Positions 1-10,034 of a stretch of 34,331 bases of DNA are shown here, piece by piece. The position numbers and the translations under genes were made by a program. This DNA is from an uncultured Bacteroidales bacterium. GTDB taxonomy: Bacteria > Bacteroidota > Bacteroidia > Bacteroidales > UBA3824. Within the stretch, counting starts at the first letter, position 1. Each line of letters begins with the position of its first letter. Where the stretch lies: assembly GCA_905233995.1 (NCBI GenBank), contig CAJOGF010000003.1, positions 1-34,331 on the forward strand. Direction: 5' to 3'. The notes beneath the pieces were generated by a model. That model ran no database searches, was not told the origin of the DNA, and worked only from the letters and a program-made list of their open reading frames with translations.

Positions 1-1533
1 GTAAACATCTTTTGGGATTTTCTCCCCGTTAATAATTTTGGTTTGTAATATATCATAAACTTCGTCAAGGGATTTGTTCGGACAATTTTTTTGTCCCCAC
101 CTTATTACTGCCCAAGCCCTTCTGCTCGCTTCGGAATTGTCTCCATAGTACTGCCATTTAGGAGTTTTGCCATCAGTAGGATTGTCATTAAAATACTCTC
201 TCCTAAACGCAGGAACATTCATCTCGTTGTAATCTCGTACAAGGCGTAGCCCGTCTAAATCTGTTCTTAGGTCAGAATGCCCTACTTCATGCATAATTGA
301 TTCTGCAATTTCATCTATGCAGCCTCCCTTCGTGCCTATATATGCAATGCCATCACTATAGTAACTTTCATCGGTGGCGCGATCTGACATAAATCGAATC
401 GTTGTTTCGCTTATCGCTCGTTTTTTGTCCGCAATTATGGTCGAAATCTGTGCATCGGAATAGCCTGCATTTCTAAGCCTACGATAATAATCATTCGTGG
501 ACAGTTCAAATATAAGTGCCGACTTGATTCTGTCGGTATCGACTCTTTTTTCGTTTATAATGCCTTTGATTTTGGCAAACAAGCCGCCGTTGTTATTACT
601 TTGCTCTGACGACATATATGCTTGATGACTGACATTGTTTGACAAAAAATTGTCCTGCTTGGTCAAAGCGTTGACACCATTTGCATTGTCAGTGTGCAAA
701 TAATTCGCTATCTTGCCAATGTTTCTTTTTGCGCCGTTTGCTGACGGTGCAATTGTCATGCCTAAGTTCATCATGTCGCCTAATCCTGACAATACCATAT
801 CACCATACCTGCCATCATCAAATGCTTGCTTAGTTTTCTCAACTCCATCTTCGCTCGCAAGGTTGTATGCGCCATACCCTGCAAAGCCAAGTTGCACTGG
901 TTTTAAAGCGTAAAAAGGCATTGCAGCGTTAGTCGTGGCAAATTCCAATTCGCTGCCCACAGTAGAGGGTACGTAAGCATTGTAGCCAAGCATTGATTGT
1001 GTCGGGGAGCCGTTTAACAGCCCCTGTGCCATCATCGGTGTATCCAAAGAGGTCATTAAAGCGTCCACTCCACCACTTATCGCCCTTTTCGTCTTTCGGT
1101 ATGCTTTTTCGTACCACGGCATTTTATCGGATGTTACCGTTATTTCTGGCAGCATGCCGCCGTCATATATTATCTCATCGGGATTGTATGATATTTCCGT
1201 CTGATTCTGCGGTGGATTGACTTGCGTCTGTTTAATTTGTCCGCCTTTTGCAAAACATTTTGATTTGAATCTTTCTTTTGTCTCGTCGGGCAATTCATCG
1301 AAAGCGTCCTTGTCTTTAACATATATGTCGTATTGAACCTCGTATGGCAACTTTTCAAAAATACTGGTTATATCCTTTGGCGATAGCAACATCATAAGAC
1401 TTCGCCAATCTTTATGTTTGGGTGTAAAGATTAATCGTGGATTGCATTTGATGTCTTCCGATGCCATATTTATCATCGTGTCCCAGTCCATTGACGGCAC
1501 TATTGTACCACGATTAAATGGATCATTATTCAT
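1..1533 (-). CDS. Phage-like protein with C-terminal zincin (HEVGH) domain, partial
   Basis: The frame is open for 511 codons from ATG 1533 to base 1 with no stop, so the C-terminus lies outside the window. A strong ribosome site (GGAGG, 1543-1539) precedes the ATG. Residues 1-90 are a soluble N-terminal part. A Gly-Gly (97-98) and a Pro/Gln-rich linker follow, then LPEITVT (128-134) and a Gly/Ala/Met-rich middle. The C-terminal part from about residue 335 holds His415-Glu-Val-Gly-His419, a zinc protease motif, and Glu468 could be the third ligand. From memory, LPEVTVT-like peptides and zincin domains recur in crAss-like and other Bacteroidetes phage proteins; this is inference. GC is visibly higher than in neighbours (27 of 60 bases at 901-960). 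It could instead be a protein of another mobile element. The frame is certain; the phage assignment is moderate. Confidence 0.72.
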   Translation of the reverse strand, partial: MNNDPFNRGTIVPSMDWDTMINMASEDIKCNPRLIFTPKHKDWRSLMMLLSPKDITSIFEKLPYEVQYDIYVKDKDAFDELPDETKERFKSKCFAKGGQIKQTQVNPPQNQTEISYNPDEIIYDGGMLPEITVTSDKMPWYEKAYRKTKRAISGGVDALMTSLDTPMMAQGLLNGSPTQSMLGYNAYVPSTVGSELEFATTNAAMPFYALKPVQLGFAGYGAYNLASEDGVEKTKQAFDDGRYGDMVLSGLGDMMNLGMTIAPSANGAKRNIGKIANYLHTDNANGVNALTKQDNFLSNNVSHQAYMSSEQSNNNGGLFAKIKGIINEKRVDTDRIKSALIFELSTNDYYRRLRNAGYSDAQISTIIADKKRAISETTIRFMSDRATDESYYSDGIAYIGTKGGCIDEIAESIMHEVGHSDLRTDLDGLRLVRDYNEMNVPAFRREYFNDNPTDGKTPKWQYYGDNSEASRRAWAVIRWGQKNCPNKSLDEVYDILQTKIINGEKIPKDVY

Positions 1534-1577
1534 GATTACCTCCGTTTTTAATTGTTAATACTATGTTATTTATGCTA

Positions 1578-1635
1578 TTCTGACATTCTACTTCTCCCTT
1601 CGTGGAATTAGGCTTTTTGCCTGTCAGAACCACGA
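1578..1635 (-). promoter_or_regulatory. Structured leader RNA: possible nested pseudoknot
   Basis: Read on the minus strand, the leader contains UCGUGG (1635-1630), which pairs with CCACGA (1605-1600), and directly after it UUCUGACA (1629-1622), which pairs with UGUCAGAA (1585-1578). A small hairpin GGC-AAAAA-GCC (1621-1611) lies between. The strand order P1, P2, hairpin, P1', P2' is that of an H-type pseudoknot with a nested hairpin. The 14 bases between P1' and P2' are nearly all purine. It sits between a promoter (1670-1700) and the ribosome site (1539-1543). No known riboswitch is recognised. It may instead be a DNA site of overlapping dyads. Confidence 0.45.
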
Positions 1636-1669
1636 CTATTAAGTTTAAATTTTTCAAGTTTTTTTTCTG

Positions 1670-1700
1670 CAAAAATAATTTGTCTTTTCTCATTTGTCAA
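1670..1700 (-). promoter_or_regulatory. Bacteroidetes-type promoter for the phage-like gene
   Basis: On the minus strand TTG (1700-1698, part of TTGACA) is followed after 20 bases by TATTTTTG (1677-1670), an exact TAnnTTTG element. Transcription would begin near 1663, giving a leader of about 130 bases. Confidence 0.5.
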
Positions 1701-5549: not shown

Positions 5550-7598
5550 TTATCCTATTTGACAGCCGTTTTCTAATTCAGAATCAGGATTTAAGAAATG
5601 TAGACTGCCATCGCTGCCTTCAGCGCAGAGAATCATACCTTTTGATTCGATACCTTTTATCTTTCTTGGTTCAAGATTTACAATCATAAGAATTTTTCTT
5701 CCTACAATGTCTTTCGGGTCGTAATGCTCTGCAATGCCTGAAACTAAAGTGCGTTTGTCGATTCCTGTATCAACAGTGAGTTTTAGAAGTTTGTTAGTTT
5801 TCGCAACTTTTTCGGCTTCAAGAATTGTTGCGGTGCGAATGTCGCATTTTTGAAAATCGTCAAAACTGATAAGCGTTTTTTGTGCTTTCGGTTGAAATTC
5901 TTTTTTCTGATTTTCAACTTTTGTGCGATTTAGTTTATCAATTTGTGCTTGTACTATTTCGTCGGTTATTGGTTCAAACAAAAGCGAAGATTTGTTGAGT
6001 TTGTGTTGCGGTTTTAGGATTTCTGCTGACGAAATTGTATCCCAATCTATTAGATTGTCAAGGTTCAAAAATTCTCTAAGTTTTTTCATAGAGAAAGGAA
6101 TAAACGGCTCTAAAACAGTAGATATAGCCGCTGTTATTTGAAGATTTACATAAAGAATAGTTTTTACTCTTTCTTTATCTGTCTTAATAACTTTCCAAGG
6201 CTCTTGTTCGGTAATGTATTTGTTTCCAAGACGACCTAATCCCATTGCGTTGTTAAGTGCTTCGCGGAAACGGTAGTTTTCAATACTTTTTTCAACCTCT
6301 TGCTTTATTTTGACAATTTCTTCCAACGCTTCTTTATCTGCTGAAGAAAGTTCACCGGGTTGAGGTACGTAGCCGTCAAAATATTTGTCTGTAAGTAGAA
6401 GTGTGCGGTTAACAAAATTTCCTAAAACGGCAACAAGTTCAGAATTGTTGCGCTGTTGAAAATCTTTCCATGAAAAATCGTTGTCTTTTGTCTCCGGAGC
6501 GTTTGCCGTTAAAACATAACGCAAAACGTCTTGTTTGTTTGGAAAATCTTCGTTATATTCATGCAACCAAACAGCCCAATTTCTTGAAGTAGAAATTTTG
6601 TCGCTTTCGAGATTCAAAAATTCGTTTGCGGGAACGTTGTCGGGTAGAATGTAGGAGCCTTCTGCTTTCAAAATTGACGGGAACACAATGCAATGGAAAA
6701 CAATATTGTCTTTTCCGATAAAATGGACGAGTTTACATTCGTCGGATTTCCAATATTTTTCCCATTCGGGCGTAAGTTGTTTTGTAAAAGATATATAGCC
6801 GATAGGAGCATCAAACCAAACGTAAAGCACTTTGCCGTCAGCACCTTCTACGGGTACGGGTATTCCCCAATCCAAGTCCCTGCTGACAGCGCGAGGTTGA
6901 AGACCTTGGTCAAGCCAACTTTTGCATTGTCCGTAAACGTTTACTTTCCAATTTTTGTGGTCTTGAAGAATCCATTTTTCAAGAAATTCTTGATATTTTT
7001 CGAGTGGCATATACCAATGTTTGGTTTCTTTAAGAACCAATTGAGAACCAGAAATTGCTGATTTCGGGTCTATTAAATCGGTCGGGTCGAGACTTGTGCC
7101 GCATTTTTCGCATTGATCTCCGTATGCGTTAGGGTTTCCGCAGTGCGGACAAGTACCAGTTATGTAACGGTCGGCAAGAAACTGTTTTGCTTCCTCGTCG
7201 TAGTATTGTTTTGAAGTTTTTTCAACAAAAACACCTTTATTATATAGTGTTTTGAAAATCTCTTGTGATGTTTCGGTATGAACCTGAGAGGAGGTTCTCG
7301 AATAAATGTCGAAGCTTATGCCGAAATCTTCAAATGCTTTTTTGTTGAGTTCGTGATACTTATCAATAATGTCTTGAGGTGTAACGCCTTCTTTGCGGGC
7401 TTTCATTGTGATAGCAACTCCGTGTTCGTCGGAACCGCAAATATGAAGTACATCTCTGTGTTTTAGGCGTTGATACCTAACATAAATATCCGAAGGTACG
7501 TAAACTCCTGCTAAATGTCCAATATGGATAGGTCCGTTTGCATACGGTAAAGCTGAGGTTACTAAAATACGTTTATACTTACAATTTTCTTCTGACAT
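5550..7598 (-). CDS. metG: Methionyl-tRNA synthetase with C-terminal tRNA-binding domain
   Basis: The enzyme charges tRNA-Met with methionine. The 682-residue protein has the class I HIGH motif at residues 25-28, a zinc knuckle (CPHCG and CEKCG, roughly residues 148-166) and the second signature as DKISTSRNW in place of KMSKS, a known variant form. The anticodon-binding helical part follows. A Trbp111-type tRNA-binding domain occupies about the last 110 residues (from [10 protein letters not shown], with [13 protein letters not shown]). Length and domain order are those of the longer bacterial MetRS that dimerises through this domain. The ATG at 7598 follows a good promoter (7630-7660), and the gene appears to be a single transcription unit. 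Confidence 0.97.
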
Positions 7599-7629
7599 GA
7601 TTTTTCAACGAATTATTTTTTTAACGCTG

Positions 7630-7660
7630 CAAAGATAATTTATTTTCTATCAGTTTCAAA
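7630..7660 (-). promoter_or_regulatory. Bacteroidetes-type promoter of metG
   Basis: On the minus strand TTTG (7660-7657) and TATCTTTG (7637-7630) are 19 bases apart, 32 bases upstream of the metG ATG. Confidence 0.65.
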
Positions 7661-7753
7661 ATAATATTTTTTGCTTTTTTATATAAAATTGCACGAAATT
7701 TGTATTTGTATTAAACGTAAAATGATGTTTAAGGTTTTAGAGATTTGTTTATA

Positions 7754-7798
7754 AAAAAAGGCGGCGGAAAATAATTAATTGTTTTCGGCCGTCTTTTT
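7754..7798. terminator. Hairpin with T-run, no obvious upstream gene
   Basis: AAAAAGGCGGCGGAAAA pairs, with one mismatch and a G-T pair, to TTTTCGGCCGTCTTTTT across a short AT loop. It has the shape of an intrinsic terminator on the plus strand. It lies between two divergent genes, so no annotated plus-strand gene runs into it. Confidence 0.5.
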
Positions 7799-7829
7799 GA
7801 TTTTTATTTCAAAAAAAATGTTTATTTTT

Positions 7830-7850
7830 ACGCCGTTTTTTGTTAGGCGT
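7830..7850 (+). promoter_or_regulatory. Small hairpin next to the DUF4271 start codon
   Basis: ACGCC (7830-7834) pairs with GGCGT (7846-7850) around an 11-base loop. The stem ends two bases before ATG 7853, where it could affect ribosome access. Confidence 0.3.
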
Positions 7851-7852
7851 AT

Positions 7853-8797
7853 ATGGGAAAATTTTTAATATATTTTTTTGTTATTTTTTTTAGTTTTTGT
7901 CAAGTTTGTTATTCTAAAACCAACGTTTTACTTTCCAACAATCTTGATAAAGATTCTACGTCGTATATTTATCATTTTCAGGAAATTGATGTAAATAGTT
8001 TTCCTTTTTTGTCGTTTTCGGCATCTGAAATTTCACCAAATGATAAAAGAGTAATCAATAGTTCATCGTTTGGTATTAGAGCAAAGTTTGTTCAAGTTCA
8101 AACTCCTGAATATGAACGTATTCATATAGATTTAAACAAAGATAGAATCAAAGAAGAGTATCCTTGGCAAGTTTTTTTCCCGGTTTTGATATGTGTAATT
8201 CTTATACTTTTGGCAAAATTTTATTCCGACGAGTATATTAGTAGGTTGTTTTTGATAATTTTTTACAAAAATGCCTTCTTAAATGCGATTTCGGAAAAAA
8301 ATGTTAATGCTGACAAAGCCGGTTATATGCTTTTTTCGTGCTTTTTGCTTAATGTTGTCCTTACCGCTACCGTTTGTTTGTATCGTTATAATTATCAATT
8401 TTCTATTGATTTTATTATCTCTTATATTGGTTTGTTGGCAATTGCGTCAATATATTATTTTGTAATTAAGTTGATTACAAATGCTTTTTCACAGTTGTTT
8501 GCTGTTAAAGAGATTTTTGTTTTGTATTATAAGGATACGGATTATTTGGTGCAAGCCGCATCTATTGTTTTAACTATTCTCAACACCATAAGTTTGTATG
8601 TTGTTTCAGCGCAAATTCACGAAATTGCCTTTTATGCAACGGTTTTAACTTATGTTTTGGTTGAAATTATAAAAATTTTTAAACTTTTTTTAATTATAAT
8701 CGAAAAACGGTTTCCGATTTTTTATTTGTTTTTGTACCTTTGCGGCGTGGAATTTTTACCCGCAGTTCTTGCCGTCAAACTGTTGTCCGAAGCCTGA
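7853..8797 (+). CDS. DUF4271 membrane protein
   Basis: The function is not known. The 314-residue protein has a signal-like hydrophobic N-terminus (residues 1-22) and a soluble section of about 80 residues. Several membrane segments follow: one near 105-122, and more through the C-terminal half. The length, layout and position directly before the hemD-like gene and rnpA match the DUF4271 family of Bacteroidetes. The conserved neighbourhood suggests a link to the envelope or to haem supply, but nothing in the sequence shows a reaction. The DNA has long T-rich runs because of the Phe/Leu/Ile content. The ATG at 7853 is the only sensible start. The family assignment is from memory. Confidence 0.8.
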   Translation: MGKFLIYFFVIFFSFCQVCYSKTNVLLSNNLDKDSTSYIYHFQEIDVNSFPFLSFSASEISPNDKRVINSSSFGIRAKFVQVQTPEYERIHIDLNKDRIKEEYPWQVFFPVLICVILILLAKFYSDEYISRLFLIIFYKNAFLNAISEKNVNADKAGYMLFSCFLLNVVLTATVCLYRYNYQFSIDFIISYIGLLAIASIYYFVIKLITNAFSQLFAVKEIFVLYYKDTDYLVQAASIVLTILNTISLYVVSAQIHEIAFYATVLTYVLVEIIKIFKLFLIIIEKRFPIFYLFLYLCGVEFLPAVLAVKLLSEA

Positions 8798-8834
8798 CGG
8801 TTAAGACTTTTTTTGAGAGAATTAACGGACAAAT

Positions 8835-8873
8835 ATGAATAAATTAAAAGAGAATAATTTTGAAAATCAGTAA
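8835..8873 (+). CDS. Possible 12-codon leader ORF overlapping the hemD start
   Basis: ATG 8835 opens a 12-codon frame ending at TAA 8871-8873, past the TTG start (8860) of the hemD-like gene and in another frame. Ribosomes ending here would lie on the TTG, which could help it initiate. It may simply be chance. Confidence 0.2.
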   Translation: MNKLKENNFENQ

Positions 8874-9618
8874 CGTATTGGTCTCACAGCCCAAGCCCGC
8901 TGCAGAGAGCAACAATCCTTATCAGCTTTTGGCAGATAAGTTGAAGTTGAATGTCGAGTTTAGACAGTTCATCAAAGTTGAAGGTGTTACGACCAAAGAG
9001 TTTAGAGCACAGCATATTAATTTGCAAGATTTTACTGCTGTTGTCTTCACTTCAAAGATTGGCATTGACAATTATTTTAAGTTTGCCAAAGAGATGAAAT
9101 TCAGTGTCCCTGAAGACATGCTGTACTTTTGCACAACCGAGGCTATAGCCCTTTATCTTCAAAAATATATTATTTTTAGAAAAAGAAAGATTTTCTATGG
9201 CAACAAAACCATTTCTGATATAACAGAAACAATCAAAAAACATAGTGAGGCTAAGGTTTTGATTGTAAAAGGTGATGTTTCAAATGATGAAATTCCTAAG
9301 TTTTTCGACAAAATGAACATGTTTCATAAGGAGGTAACTCTTTATAAGACAGTAAGTGCAGATTTGTCGGATATGGAAAAAGAGTTTGGAAAGTATCAAG
9401 TTTTGGTTTTCTTTACTCCTTCGGGAATACGCTCTTTGAAAGAGAATTTTCCTAATTGGAAACAAGGTGATGTTAAGATTGCTGCTTTTGGAGTTTCAAC
9501 TCACGAGGAGATAAAAAAACTTGGTTACACGCTTGATATTGCAGCGCCTACCGAAGAGAATCCGTCGATGGTTATGGCGTTAGAAAAATTTATTACTGCC
9601 GCCAATAAGAAAAAATAA
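8860..9618 (+). CDS. hemD: Uroporphyrinogen-III synthase (HemD family)
   Basis: HemD closes and inverts the D ring of hydroxymethylbilane to give uroporphyrinogen III, a precursor of haem and related tetrapyrroles. The 252-residue product begins KISNVLVSQPKPA, a start typical of the Bacteroidetes branch. It contains the two-lobed pattern of the family: VVFTSKIGIDNYF in lobe 1, and VLVFFTPSGIRSL followed by IAAFGVST in lobe 2. The start codon is TTG. No in-frame ATG, GTG or TTG lies between it and the upstream stop at 8845. A 12-codon frame overlaps the start. The 62-base gap to the DUF4271 gene suggests one transcript with it and rnpA. HemD proteins diverge greatly, so assignment rests on family phrases and gene order. 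Confidence 0.82.
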   Translation: MKISNVLVSQPKPAAESNNPYQLLADKLKLNVEFRQFIKVEGVTTKEFRAQHINLQDFTAVVFTSKIGIDNYFKFAKEMKFSVPEDMLYFCTTEAIALYLQKYIIFRKRKIFYGNKTISDITETIKKHSEAKVLIVKGDVSNDEIPKFFDKMNMFHKEVTLYKTVSADLSDMEKEFGKYQVLVFFTPSGIRSLKENFPNWKQGDVKIAAFGVSTHEEIKKLGYTLDIAAPTEENPSMVMALEKFITAANKKK

Positions 9619-9641
9619 TGTATATTTTTTTGTAGAAGTTT

Positions 9642-10034
9642 ATGACGAAAAAATATTCTTTGTCAAGAGGCGAAAGATTGAAAAGCGTGGTGAAAACCCA
9701 AAAACTTTTCTTGAAGGGAAAATCGTTCAAGATTTTCCCTTTCCATGTATATTATCGTTTAAGTAATAATACGGAAATTCTTAAAAATCAGTTTGTTATC
9801 TCGGTTGGGAAACATTTTTTTAAACATGCAGTAGACCGCAATCGTATGAAAAGACTTGTAAGAGAAGCGTATAGAAAAAACAAACAATTAGTTTATCTGT
9901 TGTCAGAAGAAAAAAATATTTTTTTTAATGTGGGCTTTGTTTACAAATCAAGTAGCAAATTGGATTATGTTGAAATCGAAAAATTAGTAATTCAAGCCTT
10001 GAATATGTTGAAAGAAAAAATGTTGGAATTATGA
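9642..10034 (+). CDS. rnpA: Ribonuclease P protein component
   Basis: RnpA is the protein subunit that helps the RNase P RNA trim the 5' ends of precursor tRNAs. The 130-residue basic protein has the family signature KHAVDRNRMKRLVREAYR at about residues 62-79, preceded by the FVISVGK strand. Length is normal. It lies 23 bases after the hemD-like gene on the same strand, the arrangement usual in Bacteroidetes, where rnpA has left the dnaA-rpmH locus. Its last six bases overlap the end of the convergent zinc-ribbon gene. Confidence 0.94.
   Translation: MTKKYSLSRGERLKSVVKTQKLFLKGKSFKIFPFHVYYRLSNNTEILKNQFVISVGKHFFKHAVDRNRMKRLVREAYRKNKQLVYLLSEEKNIFFNVGFVYKSSSKLDYVEIEKLVIQALNMLKEKMLEL

Follow-up and report, generated by a model that had tools for sequence, protein, structure and literature searches.

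Positions 1635 to 1578 on the minus strand of the window (the whole 34,331-nucleotide stretch of DNA analysed) probably encode a functional cis-acting leader RNA with a nested double pseudoknot, which precedes a cassette-borne gene family in one genus of Bacteroidales. As the leader of a moving gene family, this RNA is most likely an operator recognised by a protein or a stabiliser of the 5' end of the mRNA.

Read from 1635 to 1578, the element is UCGUGG-UUCUGAC-AGGC-AAAAA-GCCU-AAUU-CCACGA-AGGGAGAAGUAGAAU-GUCAGAA, with all strands of the nested pseudoknot proposed in the preliminary description found in their places on the minus strand. In this arrangement the helices P1 and P2 can cross each other, and a hairpin, P3, lies inside the crossing. 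The exact abutment of P1 and P2, which had also been claimed, was confirmed in the sequence; P3 follows directly after P2 (0-nt gap), and the joining lengths of the knot are 0, 0, 4 and 15 nt. The helices as originally drawn were right in their strands and order and needed correction at one base, since A1622 had been counted as an eighth pair of P2 and belongs to P3, where it forms an A-U pair that covaries to U-A. Because A1622 is assigned to P3 in the relatives, P2 comprises 7 bp and P3 comprises 4 bp. The leader and its gene consist of the following parts, in the order of transcription.

1670-1700, minus strand: promoter, read from the sequence as TTG (1700-1698), a 20-nt spacer and TAttTTTG, that is TATTTTTG (1677-1670)
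1636-1669, minus strand: A/U-rich 5' stretch from the promoter box to the pseudoknot, of variable length (34, 38 and 40 nt)
1630-1635, minus strand: 5' strand of P1, UCGUGG, pairing with 1605-1600
1623-1629, minus strand: 5' strand of P2, UUCUGAC, pairing with 1584-1578
1610-1622, minus strand: P3 hairpin, AGGC-AAAAA-GCCU, in which 1622-1619 pairs with 1613-1610
1606-1609, minus strand: joining strand AAUU, which is AAUN in all three sequences
1600-1605, minus strand: 3' strand of P1, CCACGA, from the pairing comparison
1585-1599, minus strand: purine-rich strand that joins P1' to P2', AGGGAGAAGUAGAAU (consensus AGGRAGMAGYAGAAW), 15 nt long in each of the three sequences
1578-1584, minus strand: 3' strand of P2, GUCAGAA, from alignment and pairing comparison
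1544-1577, minus strand: linker, 34 nt in all three sequences, about 80% A+U, with little predicted structure
1539-1543, minus strand: strong Shine-Dalgarno sequence GGAGG, whose first base lies 10 nt from the AUG in each of the three sequences
1-1533, minus strand: downstream gene, with the AUG at 1533 and 511 codons seen; the contig end cuts the gene

The element had been described as lying between a promoter and a ribosome site, and this placement was borne out by TTG-N20-TATTTTTG upstream and GGAGG downstream. The upstream sequence is a Bacteroidota-type promoter by the Bacteroidota promoter consensus; it also scored as a sigma-70-like site (10/12), and its box TAnnTTTGCAGA is kept in both homologous leaders (G001 and G005). 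From its position we infer a transcription start at about 1665-1660, approximately 25-30 nt upstream of P1. The linker was predicted to be open, and the predicted accessibility of the Shine-Dalgarno sequence and the AUG barely shifted once the knot residues were barred from pairing. No expression platform was visible by accessibility prediction of the leader, and the leader yielded neither a pairing partner that would sequester the Shine-Dalgarno sequence nor a terminator-like site. A minimal frame, AUG UCA GAA UAG, lies within 1597-1574 of the window (minus strand) with an SD-like AGGGAG ahead of it and overlaps the 3' strand of P2. A conserved leader peptide was rejected: AUG UCA GAA followed by a stop occurs in the window and in G005 (stop UAA), and the AUG is AAG in G001.

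Two further species of the genus, represented by the MAGs RGIG1595 (goat abomasum) and UBA3824, carry the same leader ahead of their homologue of the gene. Pairing was assessed in an ungapped alignment of the element from three sequences of this one genus (the window, G001 and G005). The results showed that 17 of 17 pairs were formed in each of the three sequences, with no broken pair. Both bases had changed in three pairs, two of them in P1 (G-C to A-U, U-A to G-C) and one in P3 (A-U to U-A), and a single base had changed in two further pairs. P1 of G005 reads UCAGGG/CCCUGA and differs on both sides at 2 of its 6 pairs, while P3 of the same genome has its outer pair changed from A-U to U-A and an inner pair changed from C-G to U-G. 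The P3 loop is AAAAA in the window and GGAAU in both relatives. P2 was nearly invariant, its sole change being C-G to U-G in G001. Compensatory changes in homologous leaders, proposed beforehand as a check, were thus present in P1 and P3 and absent from P2, with no pair broken in any helix. P2 is backed by conservation rather than by covariation, and its near-invariance is consistent with pairing. On this comparison P1 and P3 change as structure would, and P2, like the purine-rich strand after P1', looks more like a sequence read by some partner.

Controls were run on the same alignment. With the 3' partners slid by 1-3 columns, the paired share was 35-47% and no double changes were found. Column shuffles matched the observed score in 21 of 500 cases, which is near the limit attainable with three sequences, and an equal number of random substitutions placed on paired positions left all pairs intact in 12 of 200,000 trials. 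The lengths of the knot (58 nt), the linker (34 nt) and the interval from the Shine-Dalgarno sequence to the AUG (10 nt) were constant in all three sequences, whereas the 5' stretch varied and contained gaps. This geometry links the knot with the ribosome site and not with the promoter. Sequence identity was 79-84% in the element, 59-79% in the linker and 70-76% in the first 300 coding bases, and the few four-fold sites were identical at 11 of 15. Because the identity of the element is little above that of the gene start and the four-fold sites, unusually strong sequence conservation is not claimed, and the case for the element rests on pairing and fixed lengths.

The strength of the arrangement was compared with that in dinucleotide-preserving shuffles of the whole window. 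Abutting, crossing helices of 6 bp and 7 bp with any hairpin of at least 3 bp occurred about 0.8-0.9 times per shuffled 34-kb window (2,081 occurrences of this bare topology in 2,557 shuffles), and nearly all of these were weaker than the element. No arrangement as strong (summed stacking -33.1 kcal/mol) was found in any of the 2,557 shuffles, which upholds the nested pseudoknot. The accompanying warning that a lone inverted repeat would be expected by chance also held. When ordinary nested folding was scored, the 132-nt leader did not stand out (z = -1.65), and the 59-nt element did so moderately (z = -2.59).

These controls bear on the reading that the three sequences are alike by descent and the pairings meaningless; the sample of three sequences with moderate divergence leaves some room for it, but the shuffles and the substitution trials argue against it, and we consider it highly unlikely. 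The inverted repeats might instead act in DNA, as an operator or a recombination site of the moving cassette, with the RNA fold incidental. Such a role would suit a leader found with its gene at another chromosomal place and a P2 that is a nearly invariant inverted repeat. However, a DNA protein that reads sequence does not require P1 and P3 to change with their pairing kept, and the element falls within the leader predicted to be transcribed and keeps a constant spacing to the Shine-Dalgarno sequence, so that a DNA site is very improbable. The nested double-pseudoknot order P1-P2-P3-P1'-P2', including a strand joining P1' to P2', is shared with the HDV-like (delta, theta) ribozymes, which raises the question of a self-cleaving ribozyme or its degenerate descendant. 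HDV-like ribozymes require a C as the first nucleotide of J4/2 and no longer cleave when it is replaced (PMC10879173). The element differs in having no J4/2 catalytic cytosine, no P4 and no P1.1, for which loop 3 offers no partner, and in its 4-nt joiner between P3' and P1'. The strand joining P1' to P2' contains no C in the window or in G005, the two Cs in G001 are both at non-conserved positions, and no HDV family matched at E up to 10 in the window or at E up to 1 in the three loci; the element is almost certainly not of this kind. The caution already voiced about its likeness to ribozymes and riboswitches was well placed, with no C where the HDV catalytic cytosine would stand and no Rfam family assigned.

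Other accounts place the function in the RNA itself. P1 and P2 could be mutually exclusive hairpins, with a trigger shifting the leader between P1+P3 and P2+P3. As plain nested folds these two states lie within about 3-3.5 kcal/mol of one another in all three species, and the minimum-energy nested fold differs between them (P2+P3 in the window, P1+P3 in both relatives), as a two-state switch would allow. Nevertheless, the strand order and the joining lengths match a compact nested pseudoknot and do not differ between the three sequences, and neither helix takes in the Shine-Dalgarno sequence, the AUG or a terminator. The switch would therefore have no visible output, and we regard it as rather unlikely. 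A new small-molecule riboswitch with the knot as its aptamer would accord with the existence of small pseudoknotted aptamers, and the contrast of a near-invariant P2 and joining strand with a P1 and P3 that covary could point to a binding pocket. This is improbable, given that no terminator and no Shine-Dalgarno pairing partner were found and that the element stands ahead of one gene subfamily only, not ahead of genes of a shared pathway. The knot might also sit near the mRNA start to block 5'-end-dependent decay, with no sensing role. The inferred start close upstream of P1, the constant geometry and an expression platform that was not seen all agree with a stabiliser, but it would need neither the fixed 34-nt distance to the Shine-Dalgarno sequence nor the near-invariant P2 and purine-rich joining strand, which leaves this account somewhat unlikely.

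No Rfam family reached its gathering threshold in the window or in either relative. The preQ1-II riboswitch (RF01054) scored 15 bits in the window (E = 6) against a gathering score of 47 bits and had no match on the three whole loci at E up to 1; membership was rejected as a chance score far below the gathering threshold. Both this riboswitch and the element are leader pseudoknots that carry an additional hairpin. In the preQ1-II riboswitch this hairpin is placed in a different loop, and the 3' helix includes the Shine-Dalgarno sequence, whereas the 3' helix of the element does not. A frameshift-site family in Rfam was likewise dismissed as a sub-threshold chance score. A type III toxin-antitoxin RNA, in which a knot lies between promoter and toxin, was rejected on the single copy, the lack of a terminator and a gene with no Pfam or PADLOC match.

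A covariance model (R1), with P2 and P3 modelled, was built from the three loci. In the 18 genomes of the genus it gave strong scores for these three loci only (E below 1e-17), and the element was present as one copy per genome, each ahead of the same N-terminal gene subfamily. Of the weak matches to R1, 2 from the genus, 7 from the order (295 genomes searched) and the 2 from the phylum (395 genomes searched) were read by eye, and the P1-P2-P3-P1'-P2' arrangement was present in none; among the best weak matches inspected, the samples of the order and the phylum thus contained no convincing copy. Three patterns of the leader had no match in viral contigs, and blastn against phage DNA gave short matches only, none over most of the leader. 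G007 lacks the leader, and a relaxed topology search found nothing there; at its locus with the arabinanase gene (L019:1590-1900, minus strand) it retains the promoter region after that gene but has another leader. This other leader holds a 63-codon open frame and is followed by a divergent member of the gene family.

The downstream gene runs off the contig, the window starting at base 1 of the contig. Its protein has a homologue of 81% identity in G005 and one in G001 that shares the N-terminal part, both in the same genus, and more distant homologues in G007 and G017. A protein search of a 393-genome sample of the order gave matches within the genus only. Further N-terminal matches (G001:C67 and G009:C182) were discarded as very weak and unconvincing. 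The family has a conserved N-terminal domain and a C-terminal part that changes between species: an HExxH motif is present in the window and G005, and G001 has a weak peptidoglycan-binding match and, by eye, an NlpC/P60-like stretch. Structure prediction gave a mean pLDDT of 37, with only residues about 20-95 reaching 58-84, in an all-helical domain. A viral fold search with the predicted protein was empty below E = 0.001, the model being too poor for this result to weigh. The gene product had no significant Pfam, PHROGs or PADLOC family and no recognisable nucleic-acid-binding family. The gene had earlier been called phage-like, and this name found no support: tblastn gave no match to a phage record, PHROGs reached only E = 0.3, and two protein scans found no relative in viral contigs. 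It is better described by its conserved N-terminus and changing C-terminus, its restriction to this genus among the genomes searched and its place in a variable cassette in two genomes. The family could be effector-like. The window gene (1-1533, minus strand) and L018:1003-2442 belong to a family with a 'DGGMLPE' linker, an N-terminal helical domain and exchanged C-terminal parts.

The genomic setting differed between the species. The upstream same-strand gene in the window is PorZ-like (type IX secretion system), whereas G001 and G005 both have the gene flanked by the same arabinanase-like genes (upstream) and by argH; the leader is therefore found with its gene at two chromosomal places. In G001 a GH25 lysozyme gene is found further downstream of the homologue. 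In JAFPYR010000041.1 and DGIK01000180.1 (L071 and L072) the region at about 5600-9800, from the arabinanase-like genes to argH, forms a variable cassette. One species has an AAA ATPase gene there and the other a gene for a GH25 lysozyme, and in both the cassette starts with the leader and its gene.

Within the class of cis-acting leaders, a protein-bound translational operator is our tentative choice, at somewhat below even chances; a 5' mRNA stabiliser is possible with lower probability, and ligand sensing and other roles, for example antitermination, are each doubtful. For the preferred reading, the mRNA would start about 25-30 nt upstream of P1, and the knot would fold while the RNA emerges and serve as the recognition site for a protein, either the gene's own product or a host factor. 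The bound protein would then govern either how ribosomes gain access across the open linker or the 5'-end decay of the mRNA. The nearest layout appears to be the operator of T4 gene 32 (and that of RB69), which mediates autogenous repression and has a 5' pseudoknot, then an A/U-rich stretch of more than 40 nt that has little structure and carries the ribosome site (PMC535899). The T4 operator and the element have in common a pseudoknot and an open A/U-rich stretch reaching the ribosome site, serving one gene in cis. They differ in that the T4 pseudoknot is about 28 nt long, whereas the element is 58 nt long and nested, with an inner hairpin, and in that the gene here shows no sign of a single-strand-binding protein; the likeness is one of layout, not of descent.

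The suggestion of a new regulatory RNA stands as regards a structure kept in homologous leaders and matching no Rfam family, and its regulatory part is suggested by position and conservation. We tentatively propose an undescribed leader-RNA family, in which the HDV-like nested double-pseudoknot fold, without catalysis, may read a protein or a ligand and so control a mobile gene family of gut Bacteroidales whose C-terminal part changes. If regulatory, it would be a compact 58-nt RNA control element from Bacteroidota that is absent from Rfam; to our knowledge, few leader RNAs of this sort are known from Bacteroidota. It would also present a ribozyme topology that lacks the catalytic residue and is joined to a gene in which species exchange the C-terminal part. 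At 58 nt the element is small enough for direct structure determination, and the natural variants of P1 and P3 point to compensatory mutants. In the window alone, UCGUGG and CCACGA, the two strands of P1, appear again near the start of the coding sequence, at about 1513-1506 and about 1440-1433 (minus strand); not being kept in the relatives, this recurrence is probably a coincidence.
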